Source: Marinobacter excellens HL-55 (GTDB lineage: Bacteria; Pseudomonadota; Gammaproteobacteria; Pseudomonadales; Oleiphilaceae). Taken from it: 64,000 nt of DNA. The stretch lies in assembly GCA_001314845.1 (NCBI GenBank), contig LJZQ01000003.1:76423-140422 (forward strand), read 5' to 3'. Position 1 is the first letter of the stretch. Every line of letters begins with the position of its first letter. Positions 15,968 to 25,148 of this stretch are shown one piece after another. The notes beneath the pieces were generated by a model. The model was not told where the DNA came from. It saw nothing but the letters and a program-made list of their open reading frames with translations, and did no database searches. The position numbers were made by a program, and so were the translations under genes.

Positions 15968-17488
15968 ATGGCCCATGAAGAACTGCATCTGAATCTGCGT
16001 AACCTGACTCTTGAAGACTACAGCCAACTTCAGGAATTGATGGATGAAGTTTACGAAGATATCGGTGGTGCGTGGCCAAGTGACACCATCAAGGCACTGG
16101 TTGAACAGTTTCCTGACGGTCAGATCTGCATTGAGGATAGCGGGCAGCTGGTGGCGGTCGCACTCACTGTGTGCGTCAAGTACGAGCGGTTCAGCAACCC
16201 GCACGCCTACGACGATCTGATTCTTCGTAATGAGAAGATCTGGCACAACCAGAATGGCGACTCACTCTACGGTCTGGACGTGTTCATTCATCCAGAGTAT
16301 CGCGGTTATCGCCTGGGCCGCCGGCTTTATGAAGCACGCAAAGAGCTTTGCCGTTCGATGAACCTGAGGGCCATCCTGGCCGGTGGACGTATTCCCAACT
16401 ATTTCAAATACTCAGAGCAGTACACACCGGAGGAATACATCCATCGGGTTGATCGTAAAGAAATCTACGATCCGATCCTGAGCTTCCAGTTGTCCAATGA
16501 TTTCCAGGTAACCCGGCTGATGCACAAGTATCTCCCGGAAGACGAGAAATCGCTCGGTTATGCCACCCTGCTGGAATGGCGCAATATTCTGTACACCCCA
16601 CCGTCCTCGGTACTCAACACCAAGAAAACACAGGTGCGGCTGGGTGCCGTGCAGTGGCAAATGCGGGAGTTCACCTCGGTGGAAGAAGTGCTCAAGCAGG
16701 TGGAGTACTTCGTCGATGCGCTGTCGGACTACAAAAGCGACTTTGCACTATTCCCGGAATTTTTCAACGCTCCGTTGATGGGCCTGACGGACCAGATGGA
16801 CCAAACCCGAGCCATTCGTTTTCTGGCCGGCTTTACCGAGCAGTTCCGCAATGAAATGTCAGAAATGGCCGTCAGCTATAACATCAACATCATCACCGGC
16901 TCCATGCCGCTGCTCGAGAACGATCGCGTGTACAACGTGTCTTACCTATGCCATCGGGATGGTCGGGTTGATGAACAGCGAAAGATCCATATAACGCCCC
17001 ACGAACGTAGAGACTGGGTAATCGAAGGCGGCAATAAATTTGAAGTGTTCGAAACCGATGCTGGCCGAGTCGCTATCCTGATTTGTTATGACATCGAGTT
17101 TCCGGAATTGGGTCGGCTGGCAGCCAGCCAGGACGTAGACATTATTTGTGTTCCTTTCTGGACCGACACCAAAAACGGCTACTTGCGTGTTCGCCACTGC
17201 GCCCAGGCCCGAGCCATTGAAAACGAGTGTTACGTGGTCATCACAGGTAGCGTTGGCAACCTGCCCAAGGTTGAAAACCTTGACGTTCAGTACGCGCAGT
17301 CTTCCGTGTTTTCGCCGTCAGACTTCGCATTCCCACATGACGCAGTGATGGCAGAAACAACACCGAATACAGAAATGATCATGTTTTCTGACATGGATCT
17401 TGAAAAGCTCACATTAGTCCGTAACGAGGGTTCGGTAACCAACCTGAAAGATCGCCGTGTTGATCTTTATCAGCTCAAGACCCTATAG
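15968..17488 (+). CDS. Bifunctional GNAT acetyltransferase / carbon-nitrogen hydrolase (nitrilase superfamily)
   Basis: 506 aa; N-terminal GNAT (VFIHPEYRGYRLGRRLYEARKELC) and C-terminal nitrilase (ALFPEFFNAPL, ILICYDIEFPELGR). Confidence 0.9.
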   Translation: MAHEELHLNLRNLTLEDYSQLQELMDEVYEDIGGAWPSDTIKALVEQFPDGQICIEDSGQLVAVALTVCVKYERFSNPHAYDDLILRNEKIWHNQNGDSLYGLDVFIHPEYRGYRLGRRLYEARKELCRSMNLRAILAGGRIPNYFKYSEQYTPEEYIHRVDRKEIYDPILSFQLSNDFQVTRLMHKYLPEDEKSLGYATLLEWRNILYTPPSSVLNTKKTQVRLGAVQWQMREFTSVEEVLKQVEYFVDALSDYKSDFALFPEFFNAPLMGLTDQMDQTRAIRFLAGFTEQFRNEMSEMAVSYNINIITGSMPLLENDRVYNVSYLCHRDGRVDEQRKIHITPHERRDWVIEGGNKFEVFETDAGRVAILICYDIEFPELGRLAASQDVDIICVPFWTDTKNGYLRVRHCAQARAIENECYVVITGSVGNLPKVENLDVQYAQSSVFSPSDFAFPHDAVMAETTPNTEMIMFSDMDLEKLTLVRNEGSVTNLKDRRVDLYQLKTL

Positions 17489-17604
17489 CAAACGGTAATC
17501 TGGCCCGGAATGCCCGGGTCAAATATTGACGTAGTCTATTAAAGGGTTACGGTAGCTGACTGATGGGATTGCCAAAATTGCACTGCCCGTCTATTGTTTA
17601 ATTT

Positions 17605-18048
17605 ATGTCCACGTCATCTGACAGCTCTCAGAGGCAGAGAAAGCGTTTCATGAACGAAGAACTACCGGATATTGTCGCCCGTTTTCGTGTACGACATGGC
17701 TTGTTTCGCAAAGAGACCGTGGAGGCTCGCCTCTATGAGCTCGACAGCTATGGCTGCGTGATGAAAACGGACAAGCTGTTCAGCCCCGGCGACACCGTGA
17801 TCCTTGATCTGATCATGGATATGCCCTTTGAAGAAATCCGTGCAGAGGGTCTGTCAGGCCTGGTCACCGAGAAAAGAAAGCACTGTAGTAACTTCTTCTA
17901 CTCTATTGATTTTTTTCAGTTTGACTCCAGCGATAACTCGCCGCTGGCAGACAAAGTCAGGCGTATTCGCGAAGTTCTTTTAAAGAAACAGACACTCAAG
18001 TCCCGCAGAGGCTCAAATCCTGCGTCGGGAATGAGGCAACTAGCCTGA
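17605..18048 (+). CDS. PilZ-domain-like protein
   Basis: 147 aa; possible alternative start at 17650 (MNEELPDIVARFRV); small beta-rich PilZ-like pattern. Confidence 0.55.
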   Translation: MSTSSDSSQRQRKRFMNEELPDIVARFRVRHGLFRKETVEARLYELDSYGCVMKTDKLFSPGDTVILDLIMDMPFEEIRAEGLSGLVTEKRKHCSNFFYSIDFFQFDSSDNSPLADKVRRIREVLLKKQTLKSRRGSNPASGMRQLA

Positions 18049-18090
18049 TACTGTTCCACCACCACTACCCCTTCCGTAAGGAGACGTCCG

Positions 18091-18726
18091 ATGGCAAAGA
18101 AAGCCAAACCCAGCGTTGATAAGATTGTTAAAAAAGTAAATAAAGAGTTTGAGAAAACCTCATCCCAGATAGAAGGTTTGATCAATGATGCTTTAAAGCA
18201 GTTTGATCACCTGCAACACCAGGTTCAGGACCCCGTTCGCAAACTGATCAAAGATATGGATGAGTTGCGTGAGCGTGAAATGAAACGCTTCAACGACGAG
18301 TTTGAACGCCGTATGGATGAGTTTCATGAGCTTCAAGCTGCACTGCTTGAAAAGCTTGGCATTGCGACCAAAGAAGCTCGTAAAGAAGTCAAAAAGGCCA
18401 CAGAGACTGCCAGCAAGAAAGTAGAGGCTGCCAAGCCTGCCGCCAAAAAAGCGCCCGCCAAGAAGCCGGCAGCCAAGAAAGCTGCCGCGCCAAAACCTGC
18501 TGCGAAAAAACCCGCGGCACCCAAGGCGGCCAAGCCAGTCGATAAATCCGATCTGACCCGCATCAAAGGTGTTGGTCCGGCAACCGCAAAGAAAATGAAA
18601 GAAGCTGGCCTGACATCCATTGAGCAGATCGCTAATCCTAGTGACGCAGATAAGCAGAAGCTCGAAGCGTTCAAGAGTATTAAAGGATTCAACGAACTGT
18701 CCGCTGAAGCGAAGAAAGTCATTTGA
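18091..18726 (+). CDS. Coiled-coil protein with Ala/Lys/Pro histone-like linker and C-terminal helix-hairpin-helix domain
   Basis: 211 aa; AAKPAAKKAPAKKPAAKKAAAPKPAAKKPAAPKAAKP then DLTRIKGVGPATAKKMKEAGLTSIEQIA (HhH). Confidence 0.8.
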   Translation: MAKKAKPSVDKIVKKVNKEFEKTSSQIEGLINDALKQFDHLQHQVQDPVRKLIKDMDELREREMKRFNDEFERRMDEFHELQAALLEKLGIATKEARKEVKKATETASKKVEAAKPAAKKAPAKKPAAKKAAAPKPAAKKPAAPKAAKPVDKSDLTRIKGVGPATAKKMKEAGLTSIEQIANPSDADKQKLEAFKSIKGFNELSAEAKKVI

Positions 18727-21002
18727 TGCAAACGCCCGAGCAACCTGTATTACGGGACATTGTCCTGGTGGGTGGCGGGCACAGCCACGTCGGGGTCCTC
18801 AAGCGATTCGCCATGAGTCCGGTCCCCGGCGTCAGGCTAACCCTGATCTGCCGCGACACCCACACGCCCTATTCCGGAATGCTGCCTGGCTATATTGCCG
18901 GCCATTACAGTTACGATGATGTTCACATCGACCTGAGCCGCCTGGCGGAATACGCCGGCGCCCGATTTTACCGGGCGGAAGTCACAGGCCTGGATCGCTC
19001 AAGCAAACGGGTGATTTGCAAAGGTCGTCCGAACGTTCCCTACGATCTGCTCTCAATCAATATCGGCTCGTCACCCCGAGTGGCAGAAGTGGTCGGGGCG
19101 TCCGAGCACGCAGTGCCGGTCAAGCCGATTACCGGATTCAACAATCGCTGGCTGGCACTTTTGTCACGGGTCGAAAATCACGACGGCCCACTGACCATCG
19201 CTGTGGTCGGCGCGGGTGCCGGTGGTGTTGAGCTGACACTGGCCATGCAGTTCCGGTTGCGCAATGAACTGGCCCGGCGCGGCAAAGATCCGGACCAGAT
19301 TCATTTCCATCTGTTTGACGCCGCCGATCAGATTTTGCCAACACACAATGCAAAAGTCCGCGCGGTGTTCCGTGACAAGCTTGTTCATCGAGGCGTAAAG
19401 CTGCATCTCGGCTCCGCCGTTTCCAAAGTTGAGCAAGGGCTGCTGACTACCGAATCAGGCCAAACTCTGCAGACTGACGAAGTGCTTTGGGTGACCCGTG
19501 CCGGCGGCCCTGCCTGGCTGAACGACACAGGCCTGGCACTGGATGACGGCTTGTTTATTCGAGCCAGGGACACTCTTCAGACAGAAAACGACGACAACGT
19601 CTTCGTCGCCGGCGACATTGCCAATGTGATAAACCATCCCCGGGAAAAGGCCGGCGTGTTTGCGGTCCGTCAGGGCCCGCCGTTGGCGGACAACCTCCGG
19701 CGCATGGCCACCGGCAAACCAGCCAAGCCTTTTAATCCCCAGAAGAATTGGCTGGCACTGATCAGCACCGGTGACCAGTATGCTGTTGCCTCCCGTGGCA
19801 ACTTCGGCACTGCCGGTACCTGGGTGTGGCGCTGGAAAGACTGGATTGATCGCCGGTTTATGCAGAAATTCAGCGACCTTCCAGCCATGGAAGAAACCGG
19901 CCGCTTGCCAGACACCTTGGCTGCGCAAAACCCGGAGGAAGCCTCTCAGGCGATTTCTGCCGTAGCCATGCGGTGTGGCGGCTGTGGTGCCAAAGTTGGC
20001 AGTACGGTGCTATCTCGTGCACTCGGTGAACTGCGCCCTATTGAACGAGATGACATCATCATCGGCCTGCATGCACCCGATGACGCTGCCGTGCTGAGGG
20101 TGCCACCAGGAATGGCGGTGGTTCATACCGTGGACTTTTTTCGGGCGTTTATTGACGACCCCTACGTGTTTGGCAAAGTCGCCGCCAATCATGCCCTGGG
20201 TGACGTATTTGCCATGGGCGCAGAAGCCCAGAGCGCCACGGCGGTTGCAACCGTGCCCTACGGCATCGAGTCAAAAGTGGAAGATACCGTTTTCCAGATG
20301 ATGTCCGGCGCGGTGGAAGTGCTTAACGAGGCCGGCTGCGCGCTGGTCGGCGGCCACACTGGCGAGGGTAAAGAGCTCGCTCTCGGCTTTGCGGTTAACG
20401 GATTGATTGATCCTAAAAAGGTCATGAGTAAGGGCGGCCTTCGTGCCGGGGACGTTTTGCTGCTGACCAAGCCGATCGGCACAGGGACCTTGTTTGCGGC
20501 TCACGCTCGACTGGAGGCCAAAGGCCGCTGGATAGATGCAGCGCTGGCGTCGATGGTTCAGTCCAACAAACCTGCGGCAGATTGCCTGGTTCGTTTTGGC
20601 GCACGCGCCTGCACAGACGTAACCGGTTTTGGATTGCTGGGGCACCTGGTTGAAATGACCCGGCCCTCCGGTGTCGATGCCGAGCTTGACCTGACTGCGA
20701 TACCGATCCTGCCAGGCGCGGAAGAAACAGTCGCGGCGGGCATTCTCAGCTCCCTGCAACCGGCTAACGTCCGGTTACGGCGCGGCATTCGCAATCAGGC
20801 AGACTGGGTTAATCACCCGCGCTATCCGTTGATCTTTGATCCTCAGACAGCAGGGGGTCTGCTGGCCAGCGTGCCGGAAGCCGTTGCCGAGGCCTGTGTG
20901 CGAGAGCTCAAATCACTGGGCTACCCTCACACAGCCATTATCGGCCGTGTGACTTCTCAGGATGAGAACGGCGCCATAGAGCCCATCACGCTTCGGGACT
21001 GA
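18726..21002 (+). CDS. selD: Fused pyridine-nucleotide/FAD oxidoreductase + selenide, water dikinase
   Basis: N-terminus DIVLVGGGHSHVGVLKRFAM (FAD-binding, NDH-2-like); C-terminus MRCGGCGAKVGSTVLSRALGELRP plus VHTVDFFRAFIDDPYVFGKVAANHALGDVFAMGA (SelD). TGATG coupling to upstream gene. Confidence 0.92.
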   Translation: MQTPEQPVLRDIVLVGGGHSHVGVLKRFAMSPVPGVRLTLICRDTHTPYSGMLPGYIAGHYSYDDVHIDLSRLAEYAGARFYRAEVTGLDRSSKRVICKGRPNVPYDLLSINIGSSPRVAEVVGASEHAVPVKPITGFNNRWLALLSRVENHDGPLTIAVVGAGAGGVELTLAMQFRLRNELARRGKDPDQIHFHLFDAADQILPTHNAKVRAVFRDKLVHRGVKLHLGSAVSKVEQGLLTTESGQTLQTDEVLWVTRAGGPAWLNDTGLALDDGLFIRARDTLQTENDDNVFVAGDIANVINHPREKAGVFAVRQGPPLADNLRRMATGKPAKPFNPQKNWLALISTGDQYAVASRGNFGTAGTWVWRWKDWIDRRFMQKFSDLPAMEETGRLPDTLAAQNPEEASQAISAVAMRCGGCGAKVGSTVLSRALGELRPIERDDIIIGLHAPDDAAVLRVPPGMAVVHTVDFFRAFIDDPYVFGKVAANHALGDVFAMGAEAQSATAVATVPYGIESKVEDTVFQMMSGAVEVLNEAGCALVGGHTGEGKELALGFAVNGLIDPKKVMSKGGLRAGDVLLLTKPIGTGTLFAAHARLEAKGRWIDAALASMVQSNKPAADCLVRFGARACTDVTGFGLLGHLVEMTRPSGVDAELDLTAIPILPGAEETVAAGILSSLQPANVRLRRGIRNQADWVNHPRYPLIFDPQTAGGLLASVPEAVAEACVRELKSLGYPHTAIIGRVTSQDENGAIEPITLRD

Positions 21003-21966
21003 CCGCCTTCACAGCAAGCGCCAGAGCCTTTTCCAGGCTCTGGCGCTCCTGTTCCGGAGTAAAGGTTGTTGCCAGATCATTCACTTTGGCGACTAACGCT
21101 GCCAGCAAGTCCGGGCTTTGCTCCACCCGATACATTAACTCTGCCAGAGCACGTTCGTCTCCGACGGGAAAATAACCCGGATAATCGTCGCCGAGTAATC
21201 CCCGGTTACCTGAAATGTCGGACGCAAGAATCGGCACCCCTGCCCTGCACGCTTCAGAGACAACGTTAGCACCGCCTTCCATCACAGAACTGATCACCAT
21301 CAGGTTGCAGACCGCCATGAGATTTTCGAGTTGCGGCTTTTCCAATTCGCCGAGCCAATGAAAACGCGGATTGGCTTTGCTTTCGTTCAAGGCTTTGTCC
21401 CGCCACTCGTCGTTGTGGGGTTTGCCCGCGCAAGACACGATGATTCGGGAATCATCCGGCAAGAGCCGGCTGGCCCAAGCGGCGCGCAACGAGTCTTTTT
21501 CGGCACGGAGATGGCCGATCACGCACACATTGAATTGCCCGGGCTCCGCTTTAGAACCGCCCCGAATGCTCGTTGCCGGGGCAGATTGTCTGAGTGTTAT
21601 CAGTTTACTGTGGAACTGATCCGGTATGTCGTTGGCAACCAGATCATGCAGGCCGATCAGGACATTGGCGGCTGCCATGGAGGCGTGAGTGGGTTCCGGG
21701 TACTCACGCTGATGATGATAGATATCCGTGCCGGTCAAAACCACGATCAAAGGATGGCTCGGCCAGCACTCACGAAAGCGATGCACTAGGGTCGCGCTTC
21801 GCCAGGCGTGGAGCGCAATCATGAGATCGTATGGCTCGCCGTCGTAGTCATTCGCAACCTCAACCTGATGACCAGCCTCTTCAAGTAGCTGCTGCCAGCG
21901 GACCGCAGTTGCCCGGTTACCCGCTTTTGAATCCGGACCTGCGGGCGTAATAATGATTATTTTCAT
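20986..21966 (-). CDS. senB: TIGR04348-type glycosyltransferase, likely selenosugar synthase SenB
   Basis: MKIIIITPAGPDSKAGNRATAVRWQQLLEEAGHQVEV..YDLMIALHAWRS..; ORF 20986-21978, likely start MKII at 21966; adjacent to selD. Confidence 0.78.
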   Translation of the reverse strand: MKIIIITPAGPDSKAGNRATAVRWQQLLEEAGHQVEVANDYDGEPYDLMIALHAWRSATLVHRFRECWPSHPLIVVLTGTDIYHHQREYPEPTHASMAAANVLIGLHDLVANDIPDQFHSKLITLRQSAPATSIRGGSKAEPGQFNVCVIGHLRAEKDSLRAAWASRLLPDDSRIIVSCAGKPHNDEWRDKALNESKANPRFHWLGELEKPQLENLMAVCNLMVISSVMEGGANVVSEACRAGVPILASDISGNRGLLGDDYPGYFPVGDERALAELMYRVEQSPDLLAALVAKVNDLATTFTPEQERQSLEKALALAVKAVSPEA

Positions 21967-21997
21967 GGGATTTATCACAGAGAGTTTGCAAAATTCT

Positions 21998-22011
21998 GCA
22001 TGTCGACATGC
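21998..22011. repeat. Perfect 14-bp palindrome GCATGTCGACATGC upstream of senB
   Basis: Read directly from sequence. Confidence 0.9.
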
Positions 22012-22049
22012 TCCAGGTAAAAAGTTGTTCCGTATATCGTTTTGGGCTT

Positions 22050-22079
22050 GACGCGATTCACGTTATCCTTGGTCGCGTC
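22050..22079. repeat. Inverted repeat GACGCGA-N16-TCGCGTC
   Basis: Arms 22050-22056 and 22073-22079, perfect. Confidence 0.85.
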
Positions 22080-22099
22080 GGACCTGCCAGCACCAACCC

Positions 22100-22113
22100 G
22101 GTTATCGATAACC
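22100..22113. repeat. Perfect 14-bp palindrome GGTTATCGATAACC
   Basis: Read directly from sequence; 44 bp upstream of the SBP gene start. Confidence 0.9.
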
Positions 22114-22157
22114 ACGTCCGGATCCTACTCCCCAAAAATACTTAGTAAGGATGACAT

Positions 22158-23027
22158 ATGATCACCAAGCAAATACGGAAATGGCTTGTTTCCGGTTTTC
22201 TAACACTGGCTGTAGCTACCACCGCAAGCGCGCAAACGTTTGTATTCACCGCCATCCCGGATGAAGATGAAACGAAGCTGGTTGAGCGTTTTCGTGGCAT
22301 TGCCGATTATCTTTCCGAGCAGCTTGAAGTGGATGTCCGGTATATTCCGGTGAAATCCTACGCTGCCGCTATTTCGGCGTTCCGCAACAACCAGGTTCAG
22401 CTGGCCTGGTTTGGTGGCCTCTCCGGTGTGCAGGCTCGCGCACTGGTGCCAGGCTCCGAAGCACTGGCGCAGGGTATCGAAGATCAGGCGTTTTACAACT
22501 ACTTCATCGCCCATAAGAGCACCGGCCTGGAGCGTGCGGATGAACTGCCAGAAGGGGTACGGGGCAAAACCTTCACCTTCGGTTCCAAAGGCTCGACTTC
22601 GGGCCGTCTGATTCCCGAATATCACATCCGTGATCGCTTCAATGAAGCCCCGGAGACCGTATTCAGCCGAGTAGGTTTCAGTGGCAATCACACCCGCACC
22701 TTGAGACTCGTTGAGTCTGGCACCTACGATGTAGGCGCCCTCAACTACAAGGTATGGGAAAAAGAACTTGAAGACGGCAACATCAATACCGATGACGTTA
22801 AAATCATCTGGAAGACACCCGGGTTCCCGAACTATCAGTGGACCATTCGTGGTGACGTTGATGAGCGATTCGGTGAAGGCTTCAAAAACAAGGTTCGCCA
22901 GGCGCTGCTAGATCTGGACGACCCGGCCTTGCTGGAAAGCTTTCCTCGTGAAGGCTTTATCCCTGCCTCTAACGATGACTATGAGCCCATTCGCAGTGTC
23001 GCATCCGAATTGGGAATCATCGATTGA
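22158..23027 (+). CDS. PhnD-like ABC transporter substrate-binding protein, putative selenate transporter type (TIGR04553-like)
   Basis: 289 aa; signal peptide; FVFTAIPDEDETKLVERFRGIADYLSEQLEVDVRYIPVKSYAAAISAFRNNQVQLAWFGGLSGVQAR; selenium-gene neighbourhood. Confidence 0.8.
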   Translation: MITKQIRKWLVSGFLTLAVATTASAQTFVFTAIPDEDETKLVERFRGIADYLSEQLEVDVRYIPVKSYAAAISAFRNNQVQLAWFGGLSGVQARALVPGSEALAQGIEDQAFYNYFIAHKSTGLERADELPEGVRGKTFTFGSKGSTSGRLIPEYHIRDRFNEAPETVFSRVGFSGNHTRTLRLVESGTYDVGALNYKVWEKELEDGNINTDDVKIIWKTPGFPNYQWTIRGDVDERFGEGFKNKVRQALLDLDDPALLESFPREGFIPASNDDYEPIRSVASELGIID

Positions 23028-23677
23028 TGTCAGGCTTCGCCTTTAATGATCTGAGGGCAAGCTTCGGAGACAAGCGGGTTGTTGGCCCGCTGTCTCTCGA
23101 AGTCCAACAGGGCCAACATGTCGCTCTGGTCGGCAAGAGCGGTGCCGGCAAGTCGACCCTCATCAAACTGCTCTACGAACGCCTCACCCACCAGGCATCA
23201 TTGGTGCCGCAAGGGTTGGGACTGGTCAATGCACTGCCAGTGTTCCATAACGTGTTCATGGGGCAGCTCGACAAGCACCCCTTGTGGTACAACACCCTGA
23301 CACTGATCCGGCCGTTCCGTAAAGATCGGGACACTGTTGGTGCATTACTGAACAAACTCAGTATTTCAGATAAACAATGGACTCCTGCGGCGTCTCTGTC
23401 TGGTGGCCAGCGCCAGCGCGTAGCCATTGCCCGGGCACTTTACCGGAACGCTAACATCTTATTGGCAGATGAACCTATCTCGGCGCTTGACGAACCGATG
23501 GCGCATCTGGTCATGAAGGCCCTCACAGATCAATTCAGCACTAGTGTGATTGCACTGCACGATGTCGATATGGCGCTCGCCTATTGCACCCGCATCGTCG
23601 GCATTCAAGACGGGCGAATTGCCCTGGACCAGCCTGCCAGCGAGCTTCAGGCTGCTGACATCATGGCACTGTACTGA
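23027..23677 (+). CDS. ABC transporter ATP-binding protein (phosphonate/selenate-type)
   Basis: Walker A GKSGAGKST, signature LSGGQRQRVAIARAL, Walker B ILLADEP; TGATG overlap with SBP stop. Confidence 0.88.
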   Translation: MSGFAFNDLRASFGDKRVVGPLSLEVQQGQHVALVGKSGAGKSTLIKLLYERLTHQASLVPQGLGLVNALPVFHNVFMGQLDKHPLWYNTLTLIRPFRKDRDTVGALLNKLSISDKQWTPAASLSGGQRQRVAIARALYRNANILLADEPISALDEPMAHLVMKALTDQFSTSVIALHDVDMALAYCTRIVGIQDGRIALDQPASELQAADIMALY

Positions 23678-23681
23678 CATC

Positions 23682-25148
23682 ATGCTCTCCTACCCAACCG
23701 TAAGAGCCAGCCTGCTGTTTCTAGCCATTGCCGTGGCTGGATTATTTGTTGCCGACATTGCCATCACCACGGCCAATCCCTGGCGGGATCTTGGCCAGTT
23801 TTTTATTGGCGTCGCCACCCCCAACTTCTTCAGCACCGAAGGCTTGTTGACGGCCTTGTTGCGGACGGTTGCTTTTGGTTTCGTTGGTGTAGCCCTAGGC
23901 AGCTTCTTTGGTTTCTTGCTGGCGTTGGTCTACCGCCTTCTTCCGGTCCGTATTTTCTGCGCCTTTATCCGGGCCATTCACGAACTGTTCTGGGCGCTGA
24001 TCTTTCTGCAGTTTTTTGGCTTCCACCCGCTCACCGGTGTGCTCGCGATCGCCATCCCCTACGCAGGCATTTTTGCCAAGGTCTACTCGGAAATCCTCGA
24101 AGAATCGGACCCGGAACCCAGCAGACTGCTGCCTCCGGGTACCAGCGCCATTGCGTCTTTCTTGTACGCGCGCATACCCGATTGCTGGGTTCAGATCCGC
24201 ACCTACACCGCGTATCGCCTAGAGTGTGGTTTACGCTCTTCCGCCATTTTGGGCTTTGTCGGGTTGCCCACCCTCGGGTTCTACCTCGAGTCGTCTTTTT
24301 CACAAGGCATGTACTCGGATGCCGGCGCGATGCTCATTCTGTTTTACGTGCTCATCGCGACTATGCCGATCTGGGTGAGGCCCAAGCTGTTACCGGCCTA
24401 CTTGCTTGCAGCCCCCTTCTTTCTTGGTGAAGGATTCCCAATCGTCTGGGGCAATGTTGAGCGCTTCTTTACAGAGGATATCGTGCCTTCGCCACTGAGG
24501 AACGGTGAGGGTCTGGCAGGGCTTTCCAGCTGGCTCGGCGACGTGATGATCACCGAGGCCCTGCCCGGTATCTGGAACACGGTTGTGCTTACCCAAATTG
24601 CGCTGGTGGCCACGGGCCTGTTGTCACTGCTGGCGTTCCCCCTGATCTCAAAACACTTTACCGGGCCAGTCCGGCGCACGTCGGGCCATGTGTTCCTTGT
24701 TATCGCCCGCTCCACGCCCGAATACATTCTGGCGTACATTCTGCTGCAACTGTGGGGGCCTTCCATGCTGCCTGCGGTAGTGGCCTTGGCACTTCACAAC
24801 GGTGGCATTATCGGCCACCTGATCGGGCGACAGACCAACACCATCGAACTGCGGCCCGATGCCCCAGCCGGATTTACCCGCTATAGCTGGGAACTGGTGC
24901 CGAGAGTGTATCGATCCTTCCTGGCATTTCTGTTCTACCGCTGGGAAATCATCATGCGCGAAACCGCCATTCTCGGCATCCTGGGTATCTACACGCTCGG
25001 CTTTTATGTCGACAGTGCCATTCAGAACATTCAGTTTGACCGGGCGATGATCCTCATTCTGATAACCGCGTCGTTAAACATTGGCGTGGATGTACTTGGC
25101 CGCTATATTCGCCGAAAACTTGCGCTTCAAACGATGCCAACCTGCTAG
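23682..25148 (+). CDS. ABC transporter permease, tandem PhnE-like fusion
   Basis: ORF 23550-25148; start MLSYPTVRASLLFLAIAV at 23682; two repeated permease modules (VGLPTLGFYLESSFSQGMY and LGIYTLGFYVDSAIQN). Confidence 0.87.
   Translation: MLSYPTVRASLLFLAIAVAGLFVADIAITTANPWRDLGQFFIGVATPNFFSTEGLLTALLRTVAFGFVGVALGSFFGFLLALVYRLLPVRIFCAFIRAIHELFWALIFLQFFGFHPLTGVLAIAIPYAGIFAKVYSEILEESDPEPSRLLPPGTSAIASFLYARIPDCWVQIRTYTAYRLECGLRSSAILGFVGLPTLGFYLESSFSQGMYSDAGAMLILFYVLIATMPIWVRPKLLPAYLLAAPFFLGEGFPIVWGNVERFFTEDIVPSPLRNGEGLAGLSSWLGDVMITEALPGIWNTVVLTQIALVATGLLSLLAFPLISKHFTGPVRRTSGHVFLVIARSTPEYILAYILLQLWGPSMLPAVVALALHNGGIIGHLIGRQTNTIELRPDAPAGFTRYSWELVPRVYRSFLAFLFYRWEIIMRETAILGILGIYTLGFYVDSAIQNIQFDRAMILILITASLNIGVDVLGRYIRRKLALQTMPTC

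Follow-up and report, generated by a model that had tools for sequence, protein, structure and literature searches.

The selenium locus of Marinobacter excellens HL-55 very probably constitutes the part of an ovoselenol pathway that takes up and activates selenium and forms the selenosugar, with the final enzymes of the pathway encoded elsewhere in the genome. The preliminary description of this DNA had proposed that the locus couples selenium uptake, selenophosphate synthesis, and selenosugar formation, and this proposal stands, with uptake as its inferred part. It had also reasoned that, without a SenA/EgtB homolog, the pathway might lead to a different product, an argument that falls with the presence of a SenA-family gene on another contig. 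With the partner encoded elsewhere, what looks like a gap in the pathway reflects gene position alone. What can be kept of the idea of a different selenometabolite is that the product is probably not selenoneine. What cannot be kept is its novelty, since the partner enzyme appears to be of the OvsA type, and the predicted, and most likely, product is then the selenium-containing antioxidant ovoselenol, the biosynthesis of which was described in 2024 (Kayrouz et al., Nat Chem, as cited in PMC13188914).

The selenium locus and its selenosugar synthase

The entire gene set that had been described, consisting of a SelD fusion, senB, a binding protein, an ATPase, and a double permease, is present and open in the window, by which we mean the whole 64,000-nucleotide stretch that was analyzed (Table 1). 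The SelD fusion gene and senB converge, as described, and overlap by 17 bases; senB and the gene for the binding protein point away from each other, again as described. The span originally reported, 18091-25148, has as its start that of a separate phasin/histone-like gene outside the selenium set. The genes upstream of the selenium set (15968-18726), which encode a GNAT-nitrilase fusion, an unassigned 147-aa protein, and this phasin/histone-like protein, hold their order beside the selenium genes in Marinobacter-type loci and have no evident selenium link.

Table 1. Features discussed in the text. Coordinates without a prefix are window positions; G000 is the genome studied here.
Feature	Coordinates	Strand	Model or match
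Phasin/histone-like gene with C-terminal helix-hairpin-helix (outside selenium set)	18091-18726		
Fusion of an FAD/NAD(P)-type oxidoreductase with SelD (selenophosphate synthase), 759 aa	18723..21002	+	TIGR03169 + TIGR00476
senB, predicted selenosugar synthase, GT-B glycosyltransferase, 330 aa	20986..21978	-	TIGR04348
Divergent promoter region, senB / binding-protein gene	21979..22157	.	intergenic
Periplasmic binding protein, putative selenate ABC transporter, 289 aa	22158..23027	+	TIGR04553; PF12974
ABC transporter ATPase, PhnC-like, 217 aa	23024..23677	+	PF00005
Fused double permease, PhnE-like, 488 aa	23682..25148	+	two PhnE stretches
OvsA-type enzyme	G000:C50:65106-66428; read as L013:8095-9462 (mechanical TTG-start ORF L013:8095-9576)	-	NF041186, PDB match
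Stand-alone OvoA-C-type methyltransferase (OvsM candidate)	G000:C24:30602-31327	-	TIGR04345, 292 bits (cut-off 170)
Complete OvoA (contig C23)	L014:4394-6613		TIGR04344; TIGR04345
Hen1-like methyltransferase, 213 aa	L013:7465-8106		

In searches against curated models, the N-terminal oxidoreductase half of the SelD fusion scored 503.6 bits with TIGR03169 (cut-off 310), and the protein belongs to the SelD family by its 300.2 bits with TIGR00476 (cut-off 125). The "fusion_not_SelD" model TIGR04369 gives it 478 bits, short of the required 700. The binding protein is a member of TIGR04553 at 418 bits (cut-off 250) and also matches PF12974. The ATPase matches PF00005 and has PhnC, under cut-off, as its top NCBIfam match, while the two PhnE stretches of the permease, which starts at about 23682 and not at 23550, reach 196.4 bits, slightly under the cut-off of 216.7. 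This resemblance to PhnC and PhnE, below cut-offs in both cases, speaks for a reading in which the transporter is an ordinary phosphonate importer, the glycosyltransferase is something other than SenB, and the neighborhood is unconnected with selenium. We consider this extremely improbable, since TIGR04348, TIGR00476, and TIGR04553 are all passed by a wide margin, the catalytic residues of SenB are kept, and the same gene set occurs together with SenA and EgtD in five clusters from outside the family.

The glycosyltransferase had been called SenB-like, and it bears this out with 409.9 bits against TIGR04348 (cut-off 300) and with matches to the solved SenB structures 8k5u, 8jjq, and 8fbx. When aligned to the SenB of Variovorax paradoxus, it keeps all of N20, T23, H58, R61, T83, T85, Q131, R155, K158, and E231, of which K158 is catalytic and N20, T23, E231, H58, R61, T83, T85, and R155 are donor or acceptor residues (PMC10891094). 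From its family and its preserved catalytic residues, the protein is predicted to be a selenosugar synthase. H235 of the EGGAHV motif is replaced by N (EGGANV) in this protein and in every gammaproteobacterial row compared, including those adjacent to SenA. We rejected EGGANV as a mark of an ovoselenol branch, as the same motif is found in SenA-type clusters.

The locus layout recurs in 12 other Marinobacter-type loci, which is far beyond chance. Two of these, L083 and L084 (genomes G251 and G211), have no SelD fusion next to senB but keep the remainder of the layout. The permease is 81-99% identical in the 12 Marinobacter-type loci and 57-68% identical in the five out-of-family clusters, and the intergenic stretch that separates senB from the binding-protein gene is partly conserved over 13 Marinobacter-type loci.

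The partner enzyme and the source of hercynine

SenA/EgtB-family genes, SelB, and MnmH are, as had been stated, all missing from the window, but the SenA/EgtB family is not absent from the genome, where its sole two matches lie on other contigs. The genome-wide search with the SenA model returned one match over cut-off, on contig C50, and a weaker one on C23, which is OvoA. The earlier suggestion that a partner enzyme might lie elsewhere is thus borne out by an OvsA-type gene on C50. MnmH is likewise encoded outside the window, on contig C54 (363 bits). Nothing in the genome exceeds the cut-off for SelB, and normal selenocysteine insertion was therefore not detected.

The C50 enzyme scores 425 bits with the SenA model NF041186, only 5 above the cut-off of 420. 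Its top match in the PDB, where entries 8u41, 8u42, and 8ux5 are named OvsA selenoxide synthase, is 8u41 with 665 bits, compared with 191 for EgtB and 164 for SenA (8ryz). It is 66% identical to OvsA 8u41, 40% to V. paradoxus SenA (8ryz), 35% to EgtB 4x8b, and 33% to the OvoA of its own genome. In the alignment, the equivalents of M421, Q450, and A451 of 8u41 are M, Q, and A in this enzyme and in all 10 other copies from the genus, and the same three positions hold Y, N or T, and F, Y, or W in SenA-type enzymes, EgtB, and the five out-of-family enzymes. PDB entry 8ux5 departs from 8u41 at exactly these positions, with Y in place of M, N in place of Q, and F in place of A, and we infer that it is a variant designed to resemble SenA. 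The family's iron-binding histidines, those of WEMGHS and HQNMH, align with EgtB 4x8b. OvsA and known SenA-like rows form separate groups in a tree, with the C50 enzyme grouped with 8u41. By sequence identity, residues, and tree position, then, the C50 enzyme is of the OvsA type and very probably not SenA. NF041186 apparently fails to tell OvsA and SenA apart, and since the C50 gene passes it, automatic annotation would probably call the product selenoneine synthase.

If the C50 enzyme were nevertheless a true SenA, as its bare pass of NF041186 might be taken to indicate, then the cell would make selenoneine, using hercynine that is either imported or produced by an EgtD missing from the assembly. 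A whole-genome profile search for EgtD (PF10017) in this 96.5% complete assembly gave no match, which leaves hercynine, the substrate of SenA, without a visible source. At this level of completeness EgtD may have been lost from the assembly, but it is also absent from near-complete relatives, nine of the 11 SenB-bearing genus members lacking it; in the two members that have EgtD, EgtB directly adjoins it. All five SenA-type clusters, by contrast, have EgtD close by. Along with the much greater identity to OvsA than to SenA and the M/Q/A residues in place of the hercynine-type Y/N/F, this makes a true SenA unlikely. The preliminary proposal was to be given up if a senA or egtB gene outside the window produced ordinary selenoneine, which is only half the case. 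A SenA-family gene does exist on another contig, yet both its active-site residues and the missing EgtD argue against selenoneine.

Directly upstream of the OvsA start, at about L013 9480-9620, there is a long inverted repeat formed by GGAAGGCCTTTTGGAAAC and its complement, which overlaps the TTG-start ORF. The window contains neither the arm nor the middle of this repeat.

Co-occurrence across the order and the methyltransferases

Across 295 genomes of the order, representing 118 genera, SenB was found in 16, and an OvsA/SenA enzyme with at least 43% identity to the one studied here was found in all 16 of these and in none of the other 279. Fisher's test on genome counts, which ignores shared ancestry, gives p ~1e-26 for this co-occurrence, and the count by genus, in which both are present in 4 of 118, gives p ~1e-7, with shared ancestry again ignored. 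Eleven of the 16 genomes belong to the Marinobacter-type genus and are of common ancestry and not independent; in these, OvsA is away from senB and has the M/Q/A residues. In the five out-of-family genomes (G001, G047, G083, G118, and G198), the enzyme adjoins senB, EgtD is close, and the residues are of the hercynine type. The family-level relatives G147 and G191 have neither SenB nor OvsA.

Alternatively, the pathway might end with the selenosugar or pass it to some partner that is not OvsA, toward an undescribed selenometabolite, with OvsA present by coincidence. Physical linkage of senB and ovsA in none of the 11 genus members would fit such a scheme, as would the outcome of our search for an operator common to senB, ovsA, and the methyltransferase gene, an idea that we rejected because no word of at least 9 bases is common to the three upstream regions in this genome. 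We nonetheless judge this alternative very unlikely, given the strict co-occurrence over 295 genomes and the joint absence of SenB and OvsA from G147 and G191.

The ovoselenol reading calls for a ring-nitrogen methyltransferase, and the stand-alone OvoA-C-type enzyme on contig C24 is our candidate. In OvoA itself, the domain of this family transfers a methyl group to the ring nitrogen of 5-thiohistidine (PMC12631010). An OvoA-C-type methyltransferase exceeds the cut-off in all 11 OvsA genomes and in none of seven comparison genomes. Its gene adjoins ovsA in four of the 11; in six, among them the genome studied here, the gene lies elsewhere and the protein is nearer to the OvoA domain; in G251 the OvoA-fused copy alone was found. 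The two stand-alone types fall into separate groups of a small tree, which suggests that the ring-nitrogen methyltransferase has been exchanged between two types within the genus. A fuller history, in which the genus split the ovoselenol pathway into loci, exchanged the methyltransferase (four beside ovsA, six OvoA-like elsewhere), and left G251 relying on the OvoA domain, is one that we put forward tentatively, with somewhat less than even confidence. If it is true, then the sulfur and selenium pathways of G251 share an enzyme.

Contig C23 encodes a complete OvoA, with 688.5 bits for TIGR04344 (cut-off 400) and 348.9 for TIGR04345 (cut-off 170). Among the 11 genomes with OvsA, just four have OvoA. 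With a complete OvoA and the selenium pathway in one genome, both sulfur and selenium 5-substituted histidines may be made.

A Hen1-like methyltransferase gene beside ovsA was also considered as a pathway enzyme and rejected, as it has a Hen1-type domain and is found in 5 of the 11 OvsA genomes, while the TIGR04345 enzyme is in all 11. It is a stand-alone gene with no ligase part, convergent to ovsA in those five genus members, and among the 18 genomes searched it was seen solely in those with OvsA. By eye, the protein keeps Glu/His residues that align with Hen1. The methyltransferase for ovothiol B and C remains to be identified (PMC12631010), and a link between the Hen1-like gene and this methylation would be speculation.

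The proposed pathway and known systems

In the pathway that we propose, the ABC transporter would import a selenium oxyanion, a substrate suggested by its model name, which would then be reduced to selenide. The SelD fusion, judging by its family, would use this to make selenophosphate, which would also supply MnmH for tRNA selenouridine, and SenB would join selenium to a UDP-sugar. The C50 enzyme, given its 66% identity to OvsA and its diagnostic residues, would form the C-Se bond on histidine from this selenosugar, and the C24 methyltransferase would methylate the ring nitrogen to yield ovoselenol. A role of the TIGR04553 transporter in selenium uptake is supported, though not proven, by its regular association with pathways of the SenA as well as the OvsA type.

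An apparent orphan selenosugar pathway can thus be struck from the candidates for new selenometabolites. A search limited to the neighborhood of senB misses the partner enzyme, and the NCBI SenA model labels an OvsA-type enzyme SenA. The combination of SenB, OvsA residues, and an OvoA-C-type methyltransferase, without EgtD, offers a simple genomic rule by which ovoselenol producers can be predicted.

The ovoselenol pathway of Kayrouz et al. is said to consist of a SenB-type selenosugar synthase, SelD, OvsA, and an OvoA C-terminal-family methyltransferase, with no need for hercynine. The system described here resembles it in its SenB, its SelD, its OvsA-type enzyme, which shares the diagnostic residues, and its OvoA-C-family methyltransferase, but differs in that ovsA and the methyltransferase gene each occupy a separate locus away from senB. 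A pathway spread over three loci, with the transporter fixed beside senB and with two forms of the methyltransferase, may be new. The ovothiol synthase OvoA is related through the full OvoA encoded on C23 and through the OvsM candidate, which belongs to the OvoA C-terminal family; unlike OvsA, it uses cysteine and makes a sulfur compound.

The sen cluster of V. paradoxus comprises SenA, SenB, and SenC and makes selenoneine (PMC9814287, PMC10891094). It shares with the locus described here a SelD/SenC-type selenophosphate synthase adjoining a SenB with the same catalytic residues, whereas the Marinobacter cluster is without SenA, its off-locus enzyme is of the OvsA type, EgtD is missing, and SenB has EGGANV instead of EGGAHV. 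The five out-of-family senA-senB-egtD-selD-ABC clusters share the transporter, the SelD fusion, and SenB with this locus but, unlike it, combine SenA-type residues with an EgtD close to senB.
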